Assembly: GCA_023053545.1 (NCBI GenBank)
Contig: JAKZAN010000001.1
Span: forward strand, 10,746,565 to 10,810,564
Length of the DNA: 64,000 nt
DNA from: Lepidurus packardi
Taxonomy: Eukaryota; Arthropoda; Branchiopoda; Notostraca; Triopsidae
Reading direction: 5' to 3'
Shown here: in pieces, positions 13,189 through 54,440 of the stretch
Numbering within the stretch: the stretch's first letter is position 1
How the letters are laid out: the number at the start of each line of letters is the position of its first letter
Notes under the pieces: model-generated
The model's input: the letters and a program-made list of their open reading frames with translations, nothing else
Told to the model about the DNA's origin: nothing
The model's database searches: none
Made by a program: the position numbers and the translations under genes

Positions 13189-13690
13189 TGTAATATAATG
13201 AAGAGATTGTAAATCCTTGCTTTCCCTTTGTTATTGCCCATGAGAATATCACTTAACTGGCTAATTCTTGTGAACCAGGAACTTTGTGCCTTTTACCTTT
13301 TGAAACCCTTTCCCTTGTATATTGTGGCGTTCCGTACCCGTGTTGAACCTTGTTGCTCGCCAGGCTCCTTGGCTGCTTTCCTTGAAGCGTCGTCCTTGGG
13401 GAGTCGATGGGGTATGGCAAGGTGATTGCGGAGAGGACGACAAGCCGAGGCTATCGAGGGGGATAAAACACGTTGGCCTTGCTTAATTTGCACGTTTTGG
13501 TAGTGGGTGGCGGATTCTTGGCGAAGGGCAAGGCCGGGTCAATGAAGGACCAACGTTGGAAGAGGGATATTCTCTAAAGAAAGTTCGCCAAGTTATATAA
13601 AAAGGGGAAGGAAATGTAAAAGGGGTGAGTCCGGTTTTGGACGGTGAAGGAAATACAACATTTGGAACAGACAGACCGCGACAATATGTA

Positions 13691-15127
13691 CAGTCATGAG
13701 CAAAAAAAACTGCTCAGCCAAAGCGCAGAGGTCTAATTAGGCTTCTTGAGGCTGATTTACCTTCATTAGTGGGTGAAAGAGCTTGAACCAATTGGTTACA
13801 AGGTGCGCCCGGGAAATTGAAAGGTTTTGTTGATATATAAAAATCTTCACGGGAGATAGCAAGAAGACTCAATGTGAGTAAAAACACTGTTAACAAGTGT
13901 CTCAACAGATTTTGGAATGAAGGCAACGTGAACCGAAAGGTAAAAATATTTTTGGAAATTACCTTCTATCTTATTTTGTTATAATTAGGCAGGATCAGGT
14001 CGTCCACACAATTTAAGTGATGACGAAAAAATAAACTTGATTGCAGCAAGTGTCTCGAACCCGGCACTCAGTATGAATAAAGTTATCGATATGGTTGGCG
14101 TTAGTGCCTCGAGGTTTACGGGATACCGTGTGTTAAGTGAGGCTGGGTTTAACTCGAGAAGGCCAGCTCGTAAGTTCTTACTGTCTGAGAGACATAAGGA
14201 AGCAAGGATGTGGTTTTGTGAGAATTTCGTTAACGTCGACGAGAACTACTGGATGGCGGTCGTTTTTTCTGACGAAAGCACGATTTCCTCTGAACCAAGT
14301 GGTCCAGTTCGTGTTTACAGAGAAGTAAGGTTAGATTTTGAGTAGTAGTTTTTAAAAATAAGCTTTCTGTTCGTTAGAAAAATCAGCGATTTTCAGAGCA
14401 AATGGTTCGGGAAAACGGCAGGAGCGGGCGGTATTCAGTTCCAGTATTCGCATGGTTTTCGGCGGTAACCGGGTTAAGCCCGCTAATAAGACTACCGAAG
14501 AAGTTTCACGGAGTCGAATATCGCGAAATTCTGGCAAGCGAAATTCCTGTCATGCGCACGCTTTTAGGTAATGCACTCGTATTTCAGCAAGACAATTCGC
14601 CGATTCATAAGGCGAACACGGTTATGACCTATCTTGAGAAAGAAGGGGTGCCACTTTTACCCCACCCACCGAGGTCGCCAGACTTGAACCCTATTGAGCA
14701 TATCTGGGCCATGCTTAAACGAGAAATTAAGTAATTTTAATTTCCTTTATTTTAAACTCCAATAACGTGCCTTTTTAGCCCATCCAACATAAGAAACGAA
14801 GATACGCTCTGGGAAGAGGCAAGCCGAGTATGGGAACAATTAGCTGATAATTCAGATTTCTGGCTAAAGCTGGTTGACTCTATGCCACGGAGACTACATG
14901 CGTGTATTGAAAATAATGGTGGTATAACAAAGTATTAACAGATCACATGAAACGAAGGAATATAGTCATACATATTTTTATACATAAACAAAACCTTTGA
15001 ATTTCCCGGGCGCACCTTGTAACCGATTGGTTCAAGCTCTTTCACCCACTAATGAAGGTAAATCAGTCTCAAGAGGCCTAATTAGACCTCTGCGCTTTGG
15101 CTGAGCAGTTTTTTTTGCTCATGACTG
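13691..15127 (+). mobile_element. Tc1/mariner-type DNA transposon with long terminal inverted repeats, TA duplication
   Basis: The element is 1437 bp, flanked by TA at 13689-13690 and 15128-15129. Terminal inverted repeats of about 143 bp (13691-13833 and 14985-15127) begin CAGTCATGAGC and differ at only about four positions by eye, which suggests a recent insertion. It encodes a DD34E transposase on the plus strand. It lies inside the 5' LTR of the gypsy copy, so it is the youngest layer of the nest. Confidence 0.92.
13841..14938 (+). CDS. Tc1-type transposase, apparently split by short introns
   Basis: Cut-and-paste transposase. Four blocks join in phase across GT-AG boundaries: 13841-13939, 13989-14324, 14378-14730 and 14779-14938 (stop). 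The introns are about 49, 53 and 48 bp. The first block is the helix-turn-helix (REIARRLNVSKNTV). GSGRP follows at the linker. The first catalytic Asp is in FSDEST, the second in FQQDNS and the Glu in NPIEH, with exactly 34 residues between the second Asp and the Glu (DD34E). No initiator ATG is in frame with the first block (a TAA precedes it), so the N-terminus must come from the inverted repeat through another splice, or the gene has lost its start. Spliced transposases are unusual for this family. Confidence 0.75.
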
Positions 15128-15190
15128 TACATACATATTCCTCCCTTTCAAATACAGGGTCAGTCTCAGCCTAAGCACGAAAACGTTACA

Positions 15191-18100
15191 ATGGCGCAAC
15201 CGGTAGGATCGAAAGCTGAGAAAGTTCGTTTTCCAAAATTCGCTCCCGAACTGTTCTATATTGGAACAGGAGATGAGTGGGAAGCGTGGAGTCGGCATTT
15301 CGATCGTTACGCAAAGTTTAGTGACTTAGAAGAAAGAAAAAAAACAAAAGAAAAAAAAAGACTTGCGGAAAACGTGTTTACACTTTTGGACAAAGACATA
15401 TAAGCTAACTATAGTCGTGCAGTGGCCACTATGAGTGATATCTTCAGAGCAACGGACGTGAGTGTGTATCGGCAGAAATTTGACACTATGATCAGGGTTA
15501 AGGGCGAAACGGTGCTAGAGTTTGTTGGTCACCTTCGTATCACCTTGAAAAAAGCGTATCCTACGATGGATGCTGTGAGTCAAGAAAGGATGATTGTCAA
15601 CCGTTTAGTCGATTCTTTGGATTCGACGGAGCAGCGATTGGTCAAAATTGAAGAATTGATGGAGCAGCGACTTAGTGCCATGAAGAAGCTTATGGAGAAG
15701 ATGACAGCAAATCCTCCCAAGCCAAACAACAGATGGAACAAACCGAAGACTTGCTACAATTGCGGAGAATTTGGCAATTTCAGAACGACATGTACCAAAC
15801 CCGGACAGGCTAATGGCGCTGCGAATAGCATCCCGAAGGACAAGGGAAACTACCACTAACTGGAACTTGGGCTCCGTCTCCAGTTAATCCGTCAAATGGG
15901 GCCGTTACTGATTTTGCTGTTTCGCATGTGACCCTACCTGGTTTTGTAAAAGGTTATTGCAGCAAGACGTTTGTTTCTATGCTTGTAGACTCTGGTTCGG
16001 GCATTACACTAGTGAAACGGTATTTTGTGAATAACTCAGTTTTACAACTAGTCAATTTTCACGCTGAAACAGTGAAAAGTCAAGTTATGAAAATTTTGTG
16101 CAGAACTGTCGTTTCTTTCAAGATTGACGAAGAAGAATTTTCCTTTGATGTCCTCGTACCAATGACATGAAGCAGGAAGTCATTTGGGTAGAGACTTTTT
16201 GAACCGATTTAAAATGATAGTAGACTTCAAGGACGACGTGTACTGTTTCGGGAATAAGCAAGTATCTTTGGCAGAGAAACCCTCATGAGGTAGCTGTTAT
16301 AGTGTCCGAAACATGTGTGATTCCAGCTCAACATGAAATTTTTGTGAGAGTTTGTGTGCCAGATTCAATCACTGCTCAAGGATTGGTAGAAAAATGACTA
16401 ACAGTTCAGATTCGAGTGGTTGGTAAATTGCAAGGGAACTGGTTTCGGTTGAAGATGGACTAATTCCGGTGAGATTTATGAATGTCACTGATCCGCCTGT
16501 TCGACTGAAGTCCGGTATAACCGTTGGTGTTTTCACACCTATGGCAGATATGGTTATCAGCCGGTAATGTCAAATGTCAAAAATGATTTAAAGTGGCACA
16601 GGATCAACGAAGTTAACCAGACTAGCCTGATCGAAGAATTTGATGGTCCATTCCTCCCTCTTTTTGATGAACCGTCTAAGAAATTAACGATGAGTCAATT
16701 GGATGAATTAGAAACTTTCCTGTGTAAATACTGGGGTATTTTGTCGCTATATCCAAATGATTTGGGTAGGACAAACTATTTCAAACATCGGATCAACACT
16801 GGAACCCAGCCGCCTGTTCGTGTTCCCCCAGGAGAATTCCGGCACATTGGAAGCCACAACTGGACACCATGGTTAACGATCTACTGGAACAGGGAGTTAT
16901 TTCGCCTTCTTCAAGTCCTTGGAATTCGCCTATTGTTATGGTTAAGAAGAATGATGGAACCCTTCGCTTATGTGTGGATTACCGGGATTTAAATAACGTG
17001 ACAATCAATGTGGGTTTGGGTGCGGTTCTGTCCCAATGTATTGATGGAGTGGAAAGGTCGATAGCATTTGCAAGTCGCGTCTTGTCATCAGCAGAATCTA
17101 GGTACTGCGTTACCCGAAAAGAACTTTTGGCAGTAAAATTTGCATTAACGCAATTCAGCCATTATCTCTTGGGTAAGCCATTGAAGCTTCGAACAGACAG
17201 TGCAATGACTTGGATGAGGAGATGCAAAAACCCTTCAGGACAAATTTTTTTATGGCTTCGGCTAATTGCTTCCTACCAATTTGAAATCAAGCATCGCCCA
17301 GGGGAAAAGCACGGCAATGCTGATGCGTTATCAAGACTTCCGTGTACGCAGTGCGGGATGAATAACGACAATCCTGAGAATCAAGAAGAAGACGAAGAGG
17401 AAGATATTCCTGATATACCATTTAGTAGTCCTCTGGCTGATCCGATAGTGAATGCTTTGGAATCATGTGAGACATCGGTCACTTTTCATCAGAAATATGA
17501 CTAAGACCTCAAAGTTATTTTCGGATGGCTTAAGACACCAAGCACCTTCCCAATCTCACCGCAGAGTTTGAACTCATCGTTGAGGAGTTATTGGACCCAG
17601 AAAAGTAAGCTTTTGTTGGATGATGGGGTTTTGTATCGAAAATAGTCTTGTAAAGTGGGGGAGCGTCTTCAACCTCTCGTACCAAAGAAAGTCGCGGAGG
17701 TTCTCCTTAGAACCTACCACAACGATGAAACCGCTGCACATATGGGTGTCAGGCGGACTCCGGCGAAGTTCAGACAGAGATTTTATTGGCTGAAGATGCA
17801 GGAGGATGTAACAGCATGGTGTCGGAAGTGTATTACATGCGGACAGTAACCCGCCGCAACAGAGAAGCCGCGCCCCATTAAGGTCCTTGTGTGCTAAGCG
17901 TCCTAGTGAAATTATAGCCATGGACATTCTTGGACCACTTCCTGAAATTAAGTGGGGCAATAAATACGTTATGGTCGTAGGGGATTTGTTCAGCAAATGG
18001 TTGGAGGCTTTCCCTATTCCCAATCAAGAGGCTTCGGTAATAGCCGAATAGTTTCTCAACGAGTACGTGTGTAGACATGGGGCACCAGAACAACTGCTTA

Positions 18101-18425: not shown

Positions 18426-18534
18426 AGGAACTTTGTGCCTTTTACCTTTTGAAACCCTTTCCCTTGTATATGTACATATATATTCCTCCTTTCAAATACA
18501 GGATCAGCCTTAGCCTAGGCACGAAAACGTTACA
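18426..18534 (+). repeat. 3' LTR remnant of the inserted gypsy copy
   Basis: It matches the 5' LTR from AGGAACTTTGTGCC to CGTTACA but lacks the first roughly 88 bp of the LTR. It also lacks a central block of about 365 bp, deleted between GTATAT repeats near 18470. It ends exactly at the GAAC target duplication. Confidence 0.8.
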
Positions 18535-20990
18535 GAACCTCTGTCTTAACTTGAATATGGTACGCTCTACACACATGTGAGCAGCTGTTGCATCATCATG
18601 GTAAGCCTTTAACAGAATGCTCACCACCTTTCGAGGAACCAGGGGTAGGGGACGTTCCCCCTCTTCGGAAATCCACTTCCGGTACAGAAACCCCTCCCGT
18701 AAGCAAATCTTACTTCTTTGGGTCCAGTAACTCCGCAGTGTAGGGTTCAGACCTCGCGGTGAATCTGGAAAGGTGTTCGGTGATCGGAGCCATCGAAAAA
18801 CCACTTTAAGATCCTTGTCACTTTTCTGCTGAAAAGTCATCGACGTCTCTTCTTGATGGGGTTCCAAGGAACTTACAACCGGGTCAGCTGATGGATTAGC
18901 ACAGGGCATGCCTGGGATATCGCCATCTTCCTCTTCTTCTGAACTCTCAACTCCGTCGTATTACATTCCACACTGTCCACAGAGACGTCTAGATAGCGCA
19001 TCAGCGTTTGTGTTTTTTCCTGGGCGATGTTCTATTGTGAATTGATAAGACTCGAACAGGCTCAGCCAGCGAAGGAAGTGTCCTGAAGGGTTCTTGCATC
19101 TTTTAACCCAGCTAGTTGCACTATTGTCAGTACGAATCCTAAAAGGTCGTCCCAGCAAGTAGTGGCTGAACTGTATTAAAGCAAATTTGATTGCCAGTAA
19201 CTCCTTCCTTGTTACACAATAACACGTTTCCGCTCTTCGACTAGCAAATGCAACTGGTCTCTAAGCCCCATCGATTACTAGTGACAAAACACCACCTAGG
19301 CCCACGTTACTTGTATCCCAGTCCACAATAAACGGCTTGGACAGATCAGGGAAAGCCAAAACGGGGTAGAAGATAATAGCCGTTTAAGCCGTGCAAAAGC
19401 TTCGTCGCAAACGGTGGACCACTCAAAATTTACACTTGCCTGGTTAACTTGTAGAGGGGCTTCGCAATGTCAGAAAAATTCAGAATAAACCTTCTGTAAT
19501 ACGAAGCCAATCCTAGAAATTGAACCGTCTGATCCGCGTTATCAGGTCTCGGCCATTCCACAATAGCCCTGGTCTTCTCCGGATCTGTTTTTATGCCATC
19601 TTGAGTCACCACATGCCCAAGGAATGTGACTGTTTCCCGGAACAACTTGCACTTACTCGGTTTGATCTTCAAATGGGCATCTCGCAACCGCTGGCAAACT
19701 TCGTCAAGTCTGGCTAAATGCTCCTCAAAAGTTCGGCTAAAGATAACGATGTCGTCCAAATAAATCAGACAAACTTTCCACTGTAATCCTCTAAGGACTA
19801 GCTCCATCAGTCTTTGGAAACTGCTTGGTCCATTGCAAAATCCAAAATCCGAAGATCCTGGACCATGGTTTCAAATTGGGGCTTCCAATGTGCAGGTATC
19901 CTCCTGGGGTGCACACGAACAGATGGCTGCGTTCCGGTGTTAATTCGATTTTTGTGATACGTTCTTCTCCCCAAATCACTTGGATGCATTGCCAAGATAC
20001 TCTTGTATTTCTGCAGAAATTTCTCCAACTCATCCCTCTGACTTGCTGTTAAAGTTCGAGATGGTTCTCCAAACATGGGAAACCGAGGGCCTTTGTGTTC
20101 ATTAGTCACACCGTTGTCTTCGGTATCTTGAACGTCCTGCGATGTGGTAGCGTACCCAACATTCGAAGTGATTACCTGGTTCACCGAATTCGCTAAAACT
20201 GTAAAAACTCCTACAGTAGTCCCCGACTTCAAAGGAACGGGTTGATCTGTAACGTTCATCAGTCTCACTGGAATACGGCCGTTGTTAACTGAAACAAGTG
20301 CCCTCGCAACAAAAAACCCACTCGTTTCTCCATGGGTACGGGGGAAGACCTTCTACCAATCCTTGGCCAGGGAATGTATCAGGCACTCGTGCTGTTGTCA
20401 GAATTTCATGACGCGCTGGTACATAAAGTGCTTCCATCAATACAGCAGCAACCGTATCCGGAATGTTTTCTTCCAGAAGCATTTGGTTGCTCCCAAAACG
20501 CAACACACAGTCTTTAAAATCTATCACCATTCCAAACTCCTGTAAGAAGTCCCGACACAAGATAACTTCTTGACTTATGTCGTCAGTAACGTAGACATTA
20601 AAAGATAATTCCTTCTCATTAATCTTAAGTGAAGCAACGGTGCAGCCCAAAATGTTCATAGTTTGACTGTTCGCTGTTCTAACCCGAATTGTCACTGACT
20701 CTAAACTTAAGTTTTGCACAAGATAGGGTTTCATCAATGTAATTGCCGACCCAGAGTCTACAAGCATGGGAACAACCGTCTCGCCACAGTGACCCTTTAC
20801 AAAAGCAGCTACATTCACATTCGCAGTGACAAATTCTAAATCTGCTCCTTTGGGAGACGCAACTGGAAACGGAGCCGAACTTCCAGTTACTTGGAGTTTC
20901 CCGACCTGTTGTTGCGTTTAGGCTTCTTGCAGTCAACTTTAAAATGCCCTTCTTCACCGCAGTTGCAGTTATAAATTTCTCCGGTTTCAT
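18535..20990 (-). pseudogene. Ty3/gypsy-type retrotransposon, right half of split host copy: gag zinc knuckle to integrase N-terminus
   Basis: Read on the minus strand from 20990: gag zinc knuckle (CGEEGHFKVDC), aspartic protease (MLVDSGSAITL near 20765), partial reverse transcriptase with the YLDD box (near 19750), thumb and connection, RNase H (RTDNSA, DALSRR near 18970-19150) and the integrase N-terminal HHCC region (HDDATAAHM) up to 18538. About 60 residues of the reverse transcriptase fingers are missing near 19800-19860 with a frame change, and other shifts occur near 20270 and 20880. Gag and the 5' LTR are cut off at about 21000. Confidence 0.87.
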
Positions 20991-21293
20991 AATACTTTAA
21001 ATAGGTCCATAAGATTATTGCAAATGGGACTTTTAATCTAATTTCGGTTTCCTTCCCTTCATCTTTTTGTTTCTCATTTCCCTGTTTCTTTGTTGTTTTT
21101 TTGCTTTCTATTCTTGGTTTCCCTTTCCTTTCCGACGTGTTTGTAAGCTTTTTTGTGGATTTGAAAGGAGCACAGAACCCGGGTTCTGAACAGAGGATTC
21201 AGTCCTTTTTCTGTTGTCGTAACGCGTGGTTGGATGAACTAGGCGTTACAAGCTCGATTTCCTCAATCTTTGTTTAGAAAAATCTTCTTAAAC
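20991..21293 (+). promoter_or_regulatory. Probable promoter region of the cytokine-like gene
   Basis: Pyrimidine-rich DNA with a perfect 14-bp palindrome, AGAACCCGGGTTCT, at 21174-21187, about 107 bp before the start codon. No TATA box is obvious. The retrotransposon remnant ends just upstream. Confidence 0.35.
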
Positions 21294-24092
21294 ATGTTGC
21301 TAACATCTTTCTTTATGTTAATTATTGTGTCGATTTGGGAAGCGGGTGGTTCTACACGTTCTAAACATTCGCTCCCAATCCCTATATGTGCAGGAGGTCA
21401 TTCCCTACGTGGTTTGACCTCAAATCAGTGGCCAAGACCTGACAAACCTTTAGTTTGTTGTGAAGAAAATGGCGTTTGTTATGAAAATCAACCACTGACG
21501 GAGTTTCCAAAGGAGAGCGCTATATTCGACTTCAATTCGACGCACTGGAAAAATTTAGTACGGAATATCCATGTGCGAACTAAACGGTAAAAAAATCCAA
21601 ATGAAAAAATCCAAATGTTAAATTATGAATATAAATATAGAGAAAAATGAAATACATGCTGATTTTTTTTTTCAGGCAAGCCACGTCTTGTTCTGGTGCC
21701 TGCTCGCTACCGTCGGAAATTACAGTCTGTCCCACCAATACTTCAATTTTATTTCCCTTGTCTGGAATTTCCATCACGAGACGTAATTATTCCAACTTAA
21801 TTTAGTCTTAATAATTAGCGACATCTACATAAATAATTATATTACTACTTTGTAATAATTTGCTTAAAATGTTTTCTTCACAGAAAGTCGAGTTAATATT
21901 GCCCAATATCCTCCCGTCTTTATCCAGCCTGTAATTTACAATCGTTGTCTGAAAACCGATTGCCAATTGTTGGGCGGGTTATGCAGTCAGGTTTGTAAAA
22001 CTAGATACTTGTTCCATTCTGTTTAATTAAGTTTAATTTGAGTATATTATTTCCCATGTATGAAAGGCACAATGCAGATCTAACGTTTTTTTAGATTAAG
22101 GACACTACTCCGCTATAAATTAAAAAAAAAATATTGCTTTATATCGTATGCGCAGAATCTATGCGCGTTTACTTAAGTCCATAGTAAAGGTGTGCCGCCA
22201 CCTATCGAGCATACGGAAACATAGTTATAGGAAATAACCCAAGTTCTAAATTTCGTAAATTGCGTTTCAAGTTCTAATGTTTAATTTTGTATCTTCAAAT
22301 TTTTCGGAAGGTTCTGGTACCGCAAGCTCTATTTATATACATCCAAAAGGACGAGAAGATAGTCACGGAGCTGGATTTTGTGTATGTTGAAGGCGGATGT
22401 CAATGTACCCCGAATTTGGGGGGAAATCTGCAAGGACTCACTATTGGCGTTGATCCAATATTTTCGACCGTCTTTCGAGCCGTCACGGGCAGAATCCTCG
22501 ATTTTACCAAACTACAGGCTCATCTGAATTCTTCCCAAGTTGTTACCAGTTCCCCCATCAGTACTCTACCTGGCCCGATTCCGAGGATCAAAACTTCTGT
22601 TAAGGCCACTGGAGTTAATACCACGTTATTCCAATCAAAGCAGTCGAGTTCAGTTAACACCACTGAGACCTCACAAGGTCGTCGAGCTGTAGCAATGGAT
22701 GACGAAGACTTAAATTTTCAACCAGCCATTCAGGATGATTTCGACGAAAATGATAATGAGTTGGAATATCCAAAATCACTAAACCAAGTCCTTGAATTTG
22801 AAGTTAGTCATGATCAATCCGAGCTAAGTAATTCTCCTGCCTATTCAGATGACTCCGAAGGATCAGAAACCCTAGATTCACCGTCTCCTGATTGCGTCGA
22901 GGTTCACGAGGAAGAGGGCGACAGTGATACAGAGTTAAAGGCTCTCCCTCCAGCTTACAACAATCCGAAAATAGATTTGAGCGATTCTGAATCGCTTACT
23001 CATTCTGAATCATTGGCTCACAATTTAGCAGGAATGGATGAACACAATGACCTGCAGCATTTTGCACTTGGCGAGGATTCGTCTGACTCCGCTGATCTGC
23101 AACACTTTCAACTAGATAGTGATTCTCCTGATTCTCATAACCTTCAACAATTTCAACTAGATAGTGATTCTCCTGATTCCCATAACCTTCAACAATTTCA
23201 GCTAAACGATGATTATACCTATTCTAACCTCGAATCCAGCCACCCCGAATCACCTTTCCTCGATCCTGAAGAACTTAACCAAGCAGCGGAGAGTTTCCAG
23301 CCAGATTTGGAAGAATCCAATGATTTTAACGCTGCTGAACCGTCTGAACACTCAGAAGAAGCAACTCTAGAAGAAATTTCTGTTTTTCAGATTGATGAAG
23401 AGAATTCCCAGTCCGATTTCAGTGTCTCTCTTCTTGATTCCGACGACCTTGAATCAGCCAATTTTCCAGAATCAGTATCACTCCATTCTAACACAATTAA
23501 CGCAGAACATGTCCATAGTGATTCCGAAGTCGACGATTCTCCTCCAAATGTTTTCAGTTTTGAATCCTCTTCGACTTCAGAACCATTGCTACCCGAGTTA
23601 GCGGATACTGACCCAGAACCAGACCATTTTTCCTTCGAGCTAGAAAATTCTATCCCCGATACCAGTGATCTTATGTTCGGTGCTAATCCGGAACCAATCT
23701 CGTTATCTGAAAGTACTGATTCTGTAGTAACAGGTCAAGGATCGAAATTGACAGCTGGTCCGGAAGCCGAAGACACTGTCAAGAAAGACGTTGATCAAAA
23801 TCAGAACCAAATCTCATCCCTCTTCAATTCTTTCACTCACCTTTTCACCAAAGTAGAGTCTAATTCCTACCACAAAATCATTCCTACAGCTGCCTACAAC
23901 TACCACGTGATGCAAGCGTCTCCTCCTCCCAAACGCCCCATGGTTACCACCGATTCTCCGCCCCCACAAACCCAACTACCGAAACCCATGCAACCCCTCC
24001 CCGCGGAATCCTTACCGTGTACCAACTGTCCGATTCTGATTCCGCCGAAATTCTTCGATCCTATCAAGTCACTACTCGGCAAACATTCATAG
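21294..24092 (+). CDS. Secreted cystine-knot cytokine precursor (IL-17-like) with long acidic C-terminal tail
   Basis: Exons 21294-21586, 21676-21782, 21884-21990 and 22311-24092 give 762 residues in frame. The N-terminus is a signal peptide (MLLTSFFMLIIVSIWEAGG). A cysteine-bearing prodomain of about 80 residues ends in the furin-type site RTKR, formed across the first intron. The next roughly 105 residues resemble the IL-17 cystine-knot fold: a Cys-Pro start (VCPTN), QYPPVFIQPVI before the first knot cysteines, VPQALFIYI, and a final GCQCTP matching the family GCTCV/P end. From about residue 225 the chain becomes a roughly 500-residue Asp/Glu/Ser-rich, apparently disordered tail with a 15-residue tandem repeat, closing with a proline-rich stretch and a CTNC pair. 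The tail is in the same uninterrupted exon as the end of the knot. A Spatzle/neurotrophin-type knot is the main alternative. The ATG at 21294 is chosen because it opens the signal peptide. Confidence 0.6.
23041..23211 (+). repeat. 45-bp tandem repeat in the cytokine tail
   Basis: Nearly four copies of a 15-residue unit of the form LQ(H/Q)FQLDSDSPDSHN. The two central copies are almost identical at the DNA level, so the array probably varies in copy number. Confidence 0.8.
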
Positions 24093-24224
24093 ATTGATTA
24101 ATCCTTTCCCTCTAACGTTCGTTGGTTAAGAAGACTTTTATTTCTGTTATCTGATCTTGTTGATTCTTCATACAAACCTTAACGTAAAATTCTTAGAAAT
24201 TTCTTTGGAACAAGTCTAGGTTTA

Positions 24225-27200
24225 TTATGAGGTGGAGCCATTCTGGTGGGCGCTACGGAACTCGAGGTCGGAATCACGTCTTACAATGTGATACGACAAT
24301 AATTGTACTGCGTCAGGATCGTACTCTGCCGAGTTCTGAGTTTCCGCAATGATATCTGCTAGGAGTGTGTTCTGTGGCTCGGAAGCGGCCTCCAGAGGCG
24401 AAGGTAGGGGGAAATCTGGGTCTGACGAAGTCATGGACGGAGCGTGAAAATCGTCCTCGTCAGCCAAGGCATTTCTGCGAGCCATCTGTAGCGGTATTTC
24501 TTCACCCGGAGCTGCTGAAGCGGCTTCCAGATTGTACTGGCCTTTACTGGCTCCTCCGCGGAATGTTTTGAAGGATTTTGCGTGCCAGTTTCCCAAGACC
24601 TCTTTTAAGCTCCGTCTTCCAGCACTATTACGCGACCAGGTTGGACTCGCAGGCGTTCGAGCGATTCCTAATTCGTCAGCTAGTTCAAAGCTCACTTGTT
24701 TCTCTAAATTGGCGCCGTTCTTATAATTTACACTGGCTCCATGGAACAGACTTTCGTTATATTCTATGATAGAAAAAGAACTGAATCAGATTCTACTCAA
24801 ACTAATTTCACGGTAACATCGACAATCAACCGTAGAAGGGAATTACTGATGGGTTTGTCATAGCCTACGGGAGGCCAACCGGGTTTCTTCATTAACTGAA
24901 GTTCTAATTTTTCAAAAGCGTACCGCGGTCCCTTCCATTGCTTAATTATGGGCATTAAGACGTGGAATACCCATCCTTTTAAGAAATATTGCTGTGGGAA
25001 TCAGTTTACATTAATTTTCTTTAAGTGATTTTGGGCGAATTATTTTTCTAAAACTTAAAATGTACCTCCCAGATGAAACAAAGGATCCCACCAGCCACGC
25101 CCAGTCCCAGCAGTACGCCTGCATAGTCTGTATAAGGAAACGGTTTGAAATTGAATGCTTCTTTAAAGCTTGGAGTGTCGACAAAGAAAAGCACACAGAC
25201 TGCAATCACCGCCTCTAGCGCCCATGCCATGAAAACCCCTACCAATTTGTACAGGAAATTTCAGTAAATCATTAGCTTGTCAAGCAGGAATTAGTTGACT
25301 CAGTAAAGTGAATCCTTACAATTTTTATAAAAGGGCTGGGCGTAGGGAGCAGCTGGTGAGAAGACGAAGGCAGAAGCGGAAGTACCGATCATAAGCAAGA
25401 GGTAAATGGTGGTTTCCTCATAGGAGGGGTTTGGAGGGAATTTCCCAGCCTCGAAAACGAAGGGTTCGAACCTATGAAATGACATTAAAATGAAATATTT
25501 TGGGTTCTTTCAAACGCTTAAAAATTATGTCCTTCTTACCAAGGTTGCTGTAAGCAGTAGAACCAGCCCACAACGAGGACCAATATCTGCCAGACAAGGA
25601 ATGAAACGAAGGAAAATAGTGGTAAAACTGCCCATAGGTGACGTGGAGGGCGTCGAGGGTGCAGATAAGGGAAAGGTTGGGCTTTTCCTATTGAGAAAAA
25701 AGGGACGATGAAGAAGCAGAGGTCGAAGATATAGTATTGGAAGTCGCTGGGTTCAGAAGAAATCTACATAGATGTTTCTGTTTAATTAGACTTTTCTTTA
25801 TGTTTACAAATTTCTGGAGAATTTACGCTGAAAAGCAGCATGACACCCGCAAGGAGTACAAATGAAGCCGATACGGCGAAGAAGAACGTAGAAAATGCCG
25901 AAGTAACAGCACAGCGGCCGTGACGGATAAGGTAAGGAACGCAAGCAATGTTGGCTTCTAATTCCATCAAAAATGTAAACACGTGAAGTAATTCTTATTT
26001 CTGTTTTTACTTTGGGATGTGAATGGAGCTGCGACAGAAGCTTCCGCGGCGGACAAGGAGATGCCTGCGTGGGCTGTTTTGAGTGCTGAACTGTCATTGA
26101 ATCCGTCGCCTACCATTCCCACTTGATGTCTAAGTACATTATTGGCAGAAATAAGGGTAAATTTGCTTTGGCCGAACTAAGTAACTCACCCTTGGTTCTG
26201 CAGGATTTCGATGAGCTGAACTTTCTGCTCTGGCAGCATTCGCGCAAAGACTTTACCTCGGTGCACTGCAGTTTCTAGTAAAATTTGGTCCTGGGAATGC
26301 AGTAATTCGAACGTTTTACCGTCCATGATGAAGGAGTAATGTCCTTGGTGGATATTTCTCAATCCACAGTCCTACAAATGTGTAGCTTACATTTTTTTTA
26401 ATTCGATTAACTGATTTTTGGTTCTTCTTTTTACTTTTCGGCTGAGTAAGCTAATTTCTGCTATAGGATCAACGTACTGGACGTTGAGATGTTGTGCAGC
26501 GTGTATGGAAGCTTCCACAACGTGAGCTCGCATTTCGATTACGTTATCATTAGCTTCAACCATATTGCAAGCTCTTGCCATCGTCAATGCCGTTTGCAGG
26601 TTGTCACCTTAACCAATTATGTTTAATTTCTATTGCTTTAGTTTAAGACACTGCAGTAACATAACTTTAGTTCGATTTTACTGAAATGGTAATAGCATTT
26701 CTTAATTGTTATCTATATGTTAACTACTAAAAACTTTTATACAATAAGCGTAGCCTTATGTGTCTGGTTAGGTCTCTCCTAATTACTACGGCATTCATTC
26801 ATAATACCTTCTTAATTATCTACGTATACATAACTGTCCGATTTTCTTAAACTTACCGGTAACCATGACGGTACGGATATTAGCTTGGTGCAGTTCATGG
26901 AGGGTGGGCGTGGTCTCGGGTTTTAACTGGTTTTGGGTAAGGAGGAGACCCAGTAATTCCACATCTACCTCTAATTCCTCACGGTTGAAAGTATTGAGCT
27001 GACTCCATGCCAAGTCCTTAAGATCCCGTCTGCCTATGGCCAGTACGCGGTACCCTTGCTTGGTATAATAGGTTAGCACTTGCTCATAATTATTAGGCAC
27101 TGTAAAAGATTTTTAAAAAACGAAAGTCGAAGAATTTTTGTGTGGTTTAAAGAAATAAATTCTTCAAGTAGTTTTTTACCGGTCAAAGGGTCAGCCAAGG

Positions 27201-30200
27201 AAAACAACATTTCAGGAGAACCTTTCATGTACATTTGGTATCCGCTTTCATTCTTACTTTGTACCAACACAGACATTCGCTGTAATGCTGATTCGAAGGG
27301 AAATTGCTTCAGAATGGCTATTTCTGTCTCTGTATCGGCTTGGCCTGGTGGCGGATGAACCAATAGGGGCGTTCCCTTACCATAATTTGGGTTATCCCCC
27401 AACGGACCCTCTTCTAGGATCTATTTTTATATAAAAAAAAGTTATCCAAATATGTCATGTTTTTGGAAGTCAAGAATTATTTCGCGGATTTTAACAGCAA
27501 TAATTTACCCAATGAGTGGCTTCAAACATTTTCTGGTCCACAGTGAACCCAGATAGCTTCCCGTCGATAGTAATTAACGAGTGGCACGTCGTCAAGGCTT
27601 GTAATAGTTTACTACCACGAGGCAGAATCGAAACGTCATTCACCATTCCTTGGAATTGTTGATCTTTGGTGGGCAACACTCCTTCCAAGTCCAAATCCCC
27701 TTCAGTTAATGTTCCGGTCTACGGAATTGTATTATTTAAATATATATTCCAGAATATAACTTGCAGTAACTATTATTAAATTAAATGAGTTAAAATGCAT
27801 TTTTTCTTACCTTGTCAAAACACATGACATCAACTCCTCCGCAGAGATTTATATATTTGGAATTCAAGCAGAAAATTCCTTCTTTTTTTAGCCGCTTTTG
27901 CGCCATAGCATTAATAGTTGTCAAAGCGGCCGGTAGGATGGGCGGAACCACAAACGTTACCAAGTCAATACTATTGAGAATAATTTCTGTCACTGTGCCC
28001 TATTTAAAAGGAAAAAATGGAATCAAAGCAATAGGTATAGGACATCATAATATTATTTTTTAAGAAAAGAACGTACGCCGTTTAGAATCCAAACATAAGC
28101 GCTGTAGCACATGGCTCCCAAGCCAATCACGAAGAAAGCCACAACACATTTCATGAAATCTTGGTACAAGTGAAAATCCACAGGTTTCGGAAACAAGATG
28201 GATCGCACTAATTCCCCTTTCAAGGACATGAACCCTTAAAAGACAGGAAAGACTCTAATCTAAAATCTGACCTCTAAAACTGGTTTAAGGAAAACTGTGA
28301 TTGCTTTTCTCTGATTGTAATTAACAGTTTTTATATCGTTTTTACCCTTACCTGTGCGTATAACGACCACGTGGAGGTACTGGGTATCGTCACCTGTGCC
28401 TCTGCCTTGGATGAACTGTGTTCCCGAGAAGAGAACATGTCGTTTGTGTGCCTCGCAATCGAAATTCATTTGGTTATCACAAGGCAATGGCGTCTAAGAA
28501 TAATGTTTTACGTTAAGCATTTAATTAATTATAATTTATGACAAATAAGCCAGTTTTATAGTAAGGCTCAATTGGCTCAGCTAGCTTGTGTTATAACTAC
28601 CGCTAGATGACAGGTCTTACTTTGCAGGGCCCATATAAACGCTCTTAGTTAATTTGGCGCATACAACAGCGCGTGTGAAACCGTTTACCCAATTTGCATG
28701 AAATTTTTGTGAAGGATACAGTAACAAATTATATCTACTTTAAGCAATATAAAAGCCTTAGACAACTGAATAAAACTAAAAATAACAATAATTATACTAT
28801 CTTACTTTTGTAATTGGCACGGATTCACCAGTAAGCATCGATTCATCCATGGAACAGGTGCCTTGGATTAAAACGCAATCGAAATGGATAGGCTGGGATC
28901 CTTGGGCGAGAATTAGGACTCTGTCGCCCGGTATAACTTCCGTAGAATCCACAATTAATTCTAAACCAATATTCGCTTAGTTTTTCTTTAAATGATTAAA
29001 AAGCATAAGAAATGAGCAAACCTTGACCGTTACGCCTTACTGTAACTTGGCCAGCAGTCCTCATTTTTTCTCTTAATGCCCTAGTTTGCTACAAAAAACA
29101 AACAATTCCATTAATTTCATGGTGATACTCTCCTTTTTTTATCTTACTCGACGAGTTTCCCAAACAGACATACTAACCGCTACGAGGGTCATCAGAATAA
29201 TCACCGCCGATAGATAATAAAATCCTTGGACTGCCCATAGGATCGTCGTGTATGTTTGAAGTAGATAAAATGGATTTGAAATCTGTTGCAAAAATCCACG
29301 TTTACATATAAGAGCCAGCATTCATGAACTTTCTAATGAATTATAATAAATTACTATTTTTTAAAATCATCTTAAAATTTATTTTCGAATAGCGTTTTCC
29401 TTTGGGAACCCTAATGCTAAACTTTCATCCACTGAGTGCACTTAGCATTTTCCATTCGGAATGGACTGCAAGTTTAGTGGCACTGGGCAAATTCAATTGG
29501 GAAGTGCGATGAATTGCAACTTTTCCTGCACCGAGTTTTTCAGCATTGCTACAGTTCGAGTGCGGTTGTTTTTGACGCCAAATATAAGCATAACAGTTGT
29601 TTTGGCACTGGCTGGGTGCTTTGACGTCATAGTGGCGAAAACTCAGAAACTGATGCAGCACTAAAAATGCACTCAGTGTTCCCAAAGGAAAACGATAAGA
29701 ATAAAAGCCCACATTAACTTCAAGTAGGTGACATTTAATATGCAATTCCTCTCATTGAGACGGATATATTCCAAGAAATACTTACTTCTTGCCAAACTAG
29801 TTGCCACGCGGGTGATACGATGACGTCAATCGAATTAGAGCCATATAAAGCGAACATTTCCGCTGCTGAGGCTGCTTCTAGTCCTTGGCGCCGCTCGTAG
29901 AACTGATCACAACTTTGATCAAGGTCGTAAGGTCTATACAGGTTATCAATTAATCCCCCAACTTTTCTTTTTACTTTTCTTGTTATAAACAAAAATTACC
30001 TAATTTTCACGAAATGCATAATACCAGCGTCCCAGGCATACTTAATGTTCTTGTTATGGAAATACTTCTCGTACGGCAGATTCTTTTGGGTGTCGGCATT
30101 GGCATAAACAGTTTCCTCGAATAATTGCCCGAAAGAATCCTGAAATTACACGAAAGGCGACGATAACTAGCTTCTCCTAGCGTATTGGTTGAAACAAGGA

Positions 30201-53400: not shown

Positions 53401-53950
53401 GGGCTTTTTAATCTTAATGTAAGTTAAGCGATTTAAATAAATAAAGCAAACAAAATGTATTAACAGAAGCCCAGGCTGGAAATGCAATTTACTGCTGAAA
53501 TGGGTCAACATTTTAAACCCAAGATGGGAAATTGTGTAAAATTTCAGCATTTCTGGCCGTTTAGATCTTTGCTTAAGCTCTCCTTTAAAGTACAATCGGC
53601 AATATTTTGGATTCGGTCGTGTAGTTTTGTGTCGCCAAGAACGATTGAGATGTATTGCATATTTTTGCTGAAGAAGCGTTCAGGAGTTATAGGCGACGTT
53701 TGGGTTGCGAGCTTGCGACGTAACGAAAGTGATATGGTGTGGCGTGTGAACGCTTGTTACCATGGGTTGTTTTCACTCTCGCATACTTTACCGTCACGGG
53801 GTATCTATCTTACAGTTCTTGCGTGTTGTTCTTCAAGAATCGCTGCAATGCAAACACATTCGATTTGTCTTTGTCTCGGGGAATTTGTGTAGAAGACAGA
53901 TTTCTTAATATTTAGCATTCGTCTTAAAGGGGGAGTAAGGTTTGAAAATG

Positions 53951-54440
<490 letters not shown>

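Follow-up and report, generated by a model that had tools for sequence, protein, structure and literature searches.

Among the closest described counterparts of the gene analyzed here is the Drosophila ligand DNT1/Spz2, a protein of 886 aa in which a Spätzle-type knot is followed by a disordered COOH tail of 285-286 aa (PMC2586362). In that study, the recombinant DNT1 knot dimerized whether or not its COOH tail was present, and apoptosis in embryos was reduced by either form (PMC2586362). Mature DNT1 has also been studied as the knot together with a C-terminal domain (PMC5412559), and the post-knot extension of Spz2/DNT1 bears the motif NY(D/N)YHPIIDFF (PMC2772990). Spätzle itself has been described as having six knot cysteines, a conserved Pro after CysI and a Gln before CysII (Wilson 2009, PMC2772990). 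In Daphnia pulex, Spz1, 2, 3, 5, 6, 7 and 8 and a neurotrophin were reported (PMC2772990), and the table of a later survey gives 48 Spätzle proteins for the same species (PMC8296651).

We analyzed a window of 64,000 nucleotides, the whole stretch of DNA considered here (G000:C1:10746565-10810564), from the 108.6 Mb eukaryotic assembly of Lepidurus packardi. A ligand gene with a product of 762 aa, referred to below as the long-tail gene, occupies positions 21294-24092 of its plus strand. This gene is composed of four exons separated by three introns, all of which are GT-AG, with intron phases of 2/1/0. Exon 1 (21294..21586) encodes a hydrophobic N-terminus, MLLTSFFMLIIVSIW, which is a candidate signal peptide, and a prodomain with four Cys; RTKR, at residues 95-98, closes the prodomain, and intron 1 (phase 2) interrupts the codon of its final Arg. 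The mature region begins in exon 2 (21676..21782), which contains two extra cysteines (C103 and C107), CysI (C116) and a C-x8-P arrangement (P125). Exon 3 (21884..21990) encodes the conserved Gln148, CysII (C155), CysIII (C160), CysIV (C167) and Gln169. Exon 4 (22311..24092) is a single open exon that encodes the last knot strands with CysV (C199) and CysVI (C201) in its first part (22311..22406), the entire post-knot tail in its remainder (22407..24089) and the stop codon (24090..24092). After RTKR, the protein contains eight Cys, the last of which lies within GGCQC ending at residue 201. The original prediction of a secreted precursor, with an RxKR-type site, a cystine-knot region and a long acidic tail within a single exon, was confirmed as a gene model. 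The tail, which had been put at roughly 500 residues, is indeed long but measures 561. By homology, the precursor would be secreted, and a furin-type protease would be expected to cut it after RTKR.

The surroundings of the gene contain several mobile elements. A Tc1/mariner-like element at 13685-15133 has terminal inverted repeats of 160 nt with 96% complementarity, and DDE_3 was matched within 14378-14731; an ORF beside this match (13989-14342) is transposase-like by eye and lies in a different frame. Two diverged gypsy-like retroelement pieces stand in opposite orientation at 15404-17501 (+) and 18445-21198 (-) and share 314 nt at 71%; the latter contains an RVT_1 match at 19433-19870, and the remainder of the assignment was made by eye. 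Since the piece at 18445-21198 ends approximately 100 bases upstream of the ATG of the long-tail gene, the 5' flank of the gene may be derived from this element. Downstream, a P-type cation ATPase was found on the minus strand at 24225-27420, with a Cation_ATPase match in 27076-27420. The nearest minus-strand open frame, at 24225-24785, which has no Pfam match and may or may not be part of the ATPase gene, ends 132 bases beyond the stop of the long-tail gene. A very long two-base repeat, with the minus-strand reading (IY)n, is located at 53808-54257, and an Rfam scan of 19000-26000 gave no matches.

To place the cystine knot, the long-tail protein was compared with the Spätzle (PF16077; PDB 3e07, 4bv4), IL-17 (PF06083), neurotrophin (PF00243) and coagulin (PF02035) families. 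The full 762-aa protein had no Pfam match. Spaetzle was the best family in all five trimmed sequences that contained CysI-CysVI and ended at or before residue 234, with E-values of 0.0023-0.028 over nearly the full model and scores of 15.5-18.9 bits, below the 27 bits of the cut-off. DGF-1_5 was the only family matched by two shorter pieces that lack CysI, a result taken as chance. None of the scanned stretches produced an IL17 match in Pfam at E up to 10, in a search whose HMMER filters drop most weak matches, whereas L009 and L010, the two IL17-type genes of the same genome, matched this family (cut-off 24 bits) with 49 bits (E 8.1e-13) and 22.6 bits (E 1.4e-4). Of the two families that had been proposed for a profile search, Spätzle was matched weakly, its best E of 0.0023 coming from a match under the cut-off, and IL-17 was not matched. 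Neither NGF nor Coagulin matched any stretch of the long-tail protein that was scanned.

We also scored the knot against decoys in which the cysteines were fixed (5000 were made; the counts cover those that the search reported). With a Spätzle profile of 12 sequences, the long-tail knot scored 17.9 bits and none of the 4992 scored decoys was as high, while on a 3-sequence IL-17 profile it scored 3.9 bits and 237 of the 4971 scored decoys were as high; this contrast is uneven because the profiles hold 12 and 3 sequences. The Spätzle profile is not fully selective, the IL17-type gene L009 scoring 12.3 bits on it, and the two profiles are faintly alike. With hhalign, the long-tail knot alone gave 5.0% against Spätzle (P 0.0079, 86 columns; 2 of 150 decoys as high) and 0.5% against IL-17 (P 0.13, 45 columns). 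In pairwise comparisons with Cys-fixed shuffles, p 0.05 was reached with six of 12 Spätzle rows and one of three IL-17 rows (L009, p 0.01). PTTH identity was rejected, as the score with the single PTTH row was no better than that of decoys (p 0.923). The best single pairwise score was obtained with L008 (G000:C6:3724942-3725235, minus strand), a gene whose knot lies in one exon and matches Spaetzle with 37.7 bits and NGF with 33.3 bits; within the Spätzle/neurotrophin superfamily, it is an intermediate member.

At the level of individual residues, the long-tail protein matched all seven invariant columns of the Spätzle alignment in an alignment of the four-member profile described below. In particular, C116, C155, C160, C167, C199 and C201 correspond to the six knot Cys, P125 to the Pro after CysI and Q148 to the Gln before CysII; equating P125 and Q148 with Pro13 and Gln44 of Wilson rests on the alignment of the present analysis. 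The Cys pattern, C-x8-P, the Gln before CysII, CysIV-x-Gln and CxC are all shared with Spätzle. In contrast to Spätzle, the long-tail protein has two extra N-terminal Cys in the mature region and introns at other positions, and the aromatic residue and Pro at positions 133 and 136 of the alignment of Wilson (-6 and -3 to CysV) are replaced by Val and Glu, in a register set by eye. A PDB sequence search gave no match for the knot and none for the four-member profile. In a phylogenetic tree whose bootstrap had not settled, the long-tail protein occupied a very long branch and grouped (90/95) with 11 of 12 Spätzle-type rows, and L008 grouped with BDNF and IL-17; this tree was uninformative. By itself, the long-tail protein leans toward Spätzle without settling the family.

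Kinship became clearer from paralogues. A genome search with residues 1-212 returned the gene itself and places on C4, C1 and C3 at E-values of 0.001 to 1.5, which correspond to parts of three genes, A, B and C; each of these links is weak by itself. In reverse searches, A found the long-tail gene (E 5.7e-4), C and B, and C found A (5.2e-4); B found only itself. The long-tail gene is one of a four-gene subfamily found in the Lepidurus packardi genome, and no further members were present among the matches listed. All three intron phases of A are the same as those of the long-tail gene, and A also contains a similar CC..GxC stretch and an RKRRSKR site, although its own start was not established. 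B exceeds the Pfam Spaetzle cut-off (27.9 versus 27 bits, E 3.6e-6) and ends in IPSNCDC, so that it has the Pro before CysV (register by eye); A and C gave no Pfam Spaetzle match. A sub-threshold Coagulin match of B (18.6 bits versus 25) and the double match of L008 are the points of contact with the neurotrophin and coagulin families, in which the long-tail protein itself has no match.

Both B and C carry a GT donor two bases past the CysII codon (a phase-2 intron). Six Spätzle loci with a split knot were examined (L014, L015, L016, L018, L019 and L021, the last of which scores just under the Spaetzle cut-off at 26.3 bits), and all six have a donor at this position. The knots of five other Spätzle-type loci (L001-L004 and L008) are unsplit. 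This intron is absent from the long-tail gene and A, and the introns of the long-tail gene are placed elsewhere. In hhalign comparisons, the four-member profile gave 90.6% against 11 Spätzle rows (E 1.3e-6, 87 columns), and none of 300 column-shuffled decoys was as high; against the three IL-17 rows, it gave 5.9% (P 0.0064, 50 columns), and 2 of 300 decoys were as high. The match to Spätzle remained at 75.0% without B, which ruled out B as its sole driver, at 51.8% with the long-tail protein and A only, and at 87.9% with A and C without the long-tail protein, none of 150 decoys being as high in each case. C alone compared with IL-17 likewise had none of 150 decoys as high. Taken together, the profile comparison and the intron position common to two paralogues place the subfamily with Spätzle.

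The post-knot tail carries a net charge of -80. Its acidic core (residues 284-643; 22653..23732 of the plus strand) has a net charge of -87 and consists of 25.6% Asp plus Glu, with five Lys/Arg in its 360 residues. Within this core, a tandem repeat at 23100..23204 (+) is built from a 45-base unit in 2.3 copies with a 95% match and encodes DSPDSHNLQQFQLDS-type units, which suggests that the tail grew through internal duplication. An AlphaFold model of exon 4 alone from the single sequence, which is weak evidence, had a mean pLDDT of 37.5, as for a disordered chain, and contained four helices, the longest of which (residues 484-515 of exon 4) was of low confidence. A genome search with exon 4 matched only itself and one chance-level place (C5:6067550, E 0.08), which has stops in frame and showed no relation, and exon-4 patterns had no match in viral contigs.

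We compared the length of the tail with that of other genes in the same genome. Past the last knot Cys, the paralogues extend by 51 (A), 21 (B) and 23 (C) residues, and the long-tail gene is therefore the only one of the genes compared to have a tail of 561 residues. Assuming no further splicing, nine other Spätzle-type loci extend 6 to 30 residues past the knot, and the IL17-type genes L009 and L010, whose domains are uninterrupted, end 17 and 15 residues beyond their last Cys. The Spz2-type gene of this genome (L018) carries NYDYHPIIDFF and 163 residues past the knot. The long-tail protein and Spz2/DNT1 share the same order of parts, namely a signal peptide (a candidate one here), a prodomain, a basic cleavage site, a Spätzle-type knot and a long disordered C-terminal tail, but the two tails are comparable in position and not in sequence. 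The knot of the long-tail gene is far more divergent, its tail is longer and strongly negative whereas the local Spz2 tail has a net charge of +1, and there is no Spz2 motif. SNSYHKIIPTA, which matches this motif best within the tail, was at chance level (8253 of 20000 shuffles were equally good). The best BLASTP match between the two tails (E 0.003 in a single comparison) was of low complexity and lay outside the motif except for its edge, and it was not counted. A relationship between the two tails was accordingly rejected on motif and charge. The proposal that a long post-knot tail would be a new architecture is weakened because Drosophila DNT1/Spz2 has a tail of 285-286 aa and the local Spz2 one of 163 residues; the tail of the long-tail gene is unusual, yet it is not the first on a Spätzle-type ligand. 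In a non-exhaustive literature search, no comparable long tail was found on IL-17 proper.

The reading that we favor, at a probability of roughly 0.7, is that the long-tail gene encodes a divergent Spätzle-like ligand whose terminal exon has grown into a 561-residue acidic disordered tail that is most likely retained. By homology, the cystine-knot part would form a disulphide-linked dimer, which would signal via a Toll-type receptor. The tail, kept on the mature ligand, would most likely alter how soluble the ligand is, how far it spreads, which co-factors it binds or how it reaches the receptor. Gene structure, the kinship of the subfamily with Spätzle, the composition of the tail and its lack in the three paralogues were established computationally, whereas secretion, cleavage, dimerization, the receptor and the role of the tail are inferred.

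Other explanations were weighed against this reading. IL-17 proteins are secreted cystine-knot cytokines, and the original prediction had assigned the gene to this family by eye on the grounds of C-x4-C, VPxxxxI and GCQCTP. Assignment to a divergent, long-tailed member of the IL-17 family would also fit with the presence of two IL17-type genes in the genome, one of which has an RVKR site ahead of its domain, with a tree test in which the IL-17 grouping was not rejected (p-AU 0.214), with the residual similarity of the four-member profile to IL-17, and with the pairwise score against L009. Nevertheless, Pfam IL17 matched both local IL17-type genes and not the long-tail protein, the four-member profile aligned far better with Spätzle than with an IL-17 profile of only three rows, B matches Spaetzle, and B and C have the Spätzle intron position. 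GCxC and VP resemble IL-17 by eye, but an IL-17 identity is improbable, and the IL-17 label is most likely wrong.

Two further explanations concern the tail. In a Spätzle-like ligand as described above, the tail could be a second product that is cut off, for example between the knot and AVAMDDED at the pair of basic residues in GRR (near residues 293-294), and then acts or is degraded alone. This pair is located where the acidic core begins, and the core forms a compositionally distinct block. The furin pattern, however, is RxxR, which GRR lacks, and the only second genome match of the tail was at chance level; we regard a tail released as a second product as unlikely. Alternatively, the exon-4 frame past the knot might not be translated as one chain, owing to an alternative last exon, an early splice or non-functional read-through, and the tail would then be an artefact of the gene model. 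In line with this, the paralogues end 21-51 residues past the knot, and synonymous codon choice alone is neutral in the tail (-0.03 per codon). On the other side, 556 open codons in the tail would arise by chance with a probability of only ~7e-13 given its own base composition, and codon usage preferred the frame of the gene over the other two plus-strand frames in six of six tail pieces; when all six frames were considered, one of the six pieces tied with a minus frame. We consider an artefactual tail very unlikely.

Within the favored reading of a Spätzle-like ligand with a retained tail, a more specific and tentative proposal is possible, although we would not call it probable. The four genes may form a Spätzle-like subfamily that is not recognized in the portions of the literature consulted, and in one of them a polyanionic tail of 561 residues, kept on the ligand, may have arisen independently of Spz2/DNT1, yielding a Toll-type ligand that is auto-inhibited or is bound to matrix, calcium or a carrier.

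Should the tail be translated and retained, Spätzle-type ligands would have a second long extension, unrelated to that of DNT1. In that case, the role of such tails, which has been described for DNT1, could be tested by comparison with the three sister genes of this genome whose tails are short. The ease with which a divergent Spätzle knot is mistaken by eye for IL-17 bears on claims about the cytokine repertoires of crustaceans.
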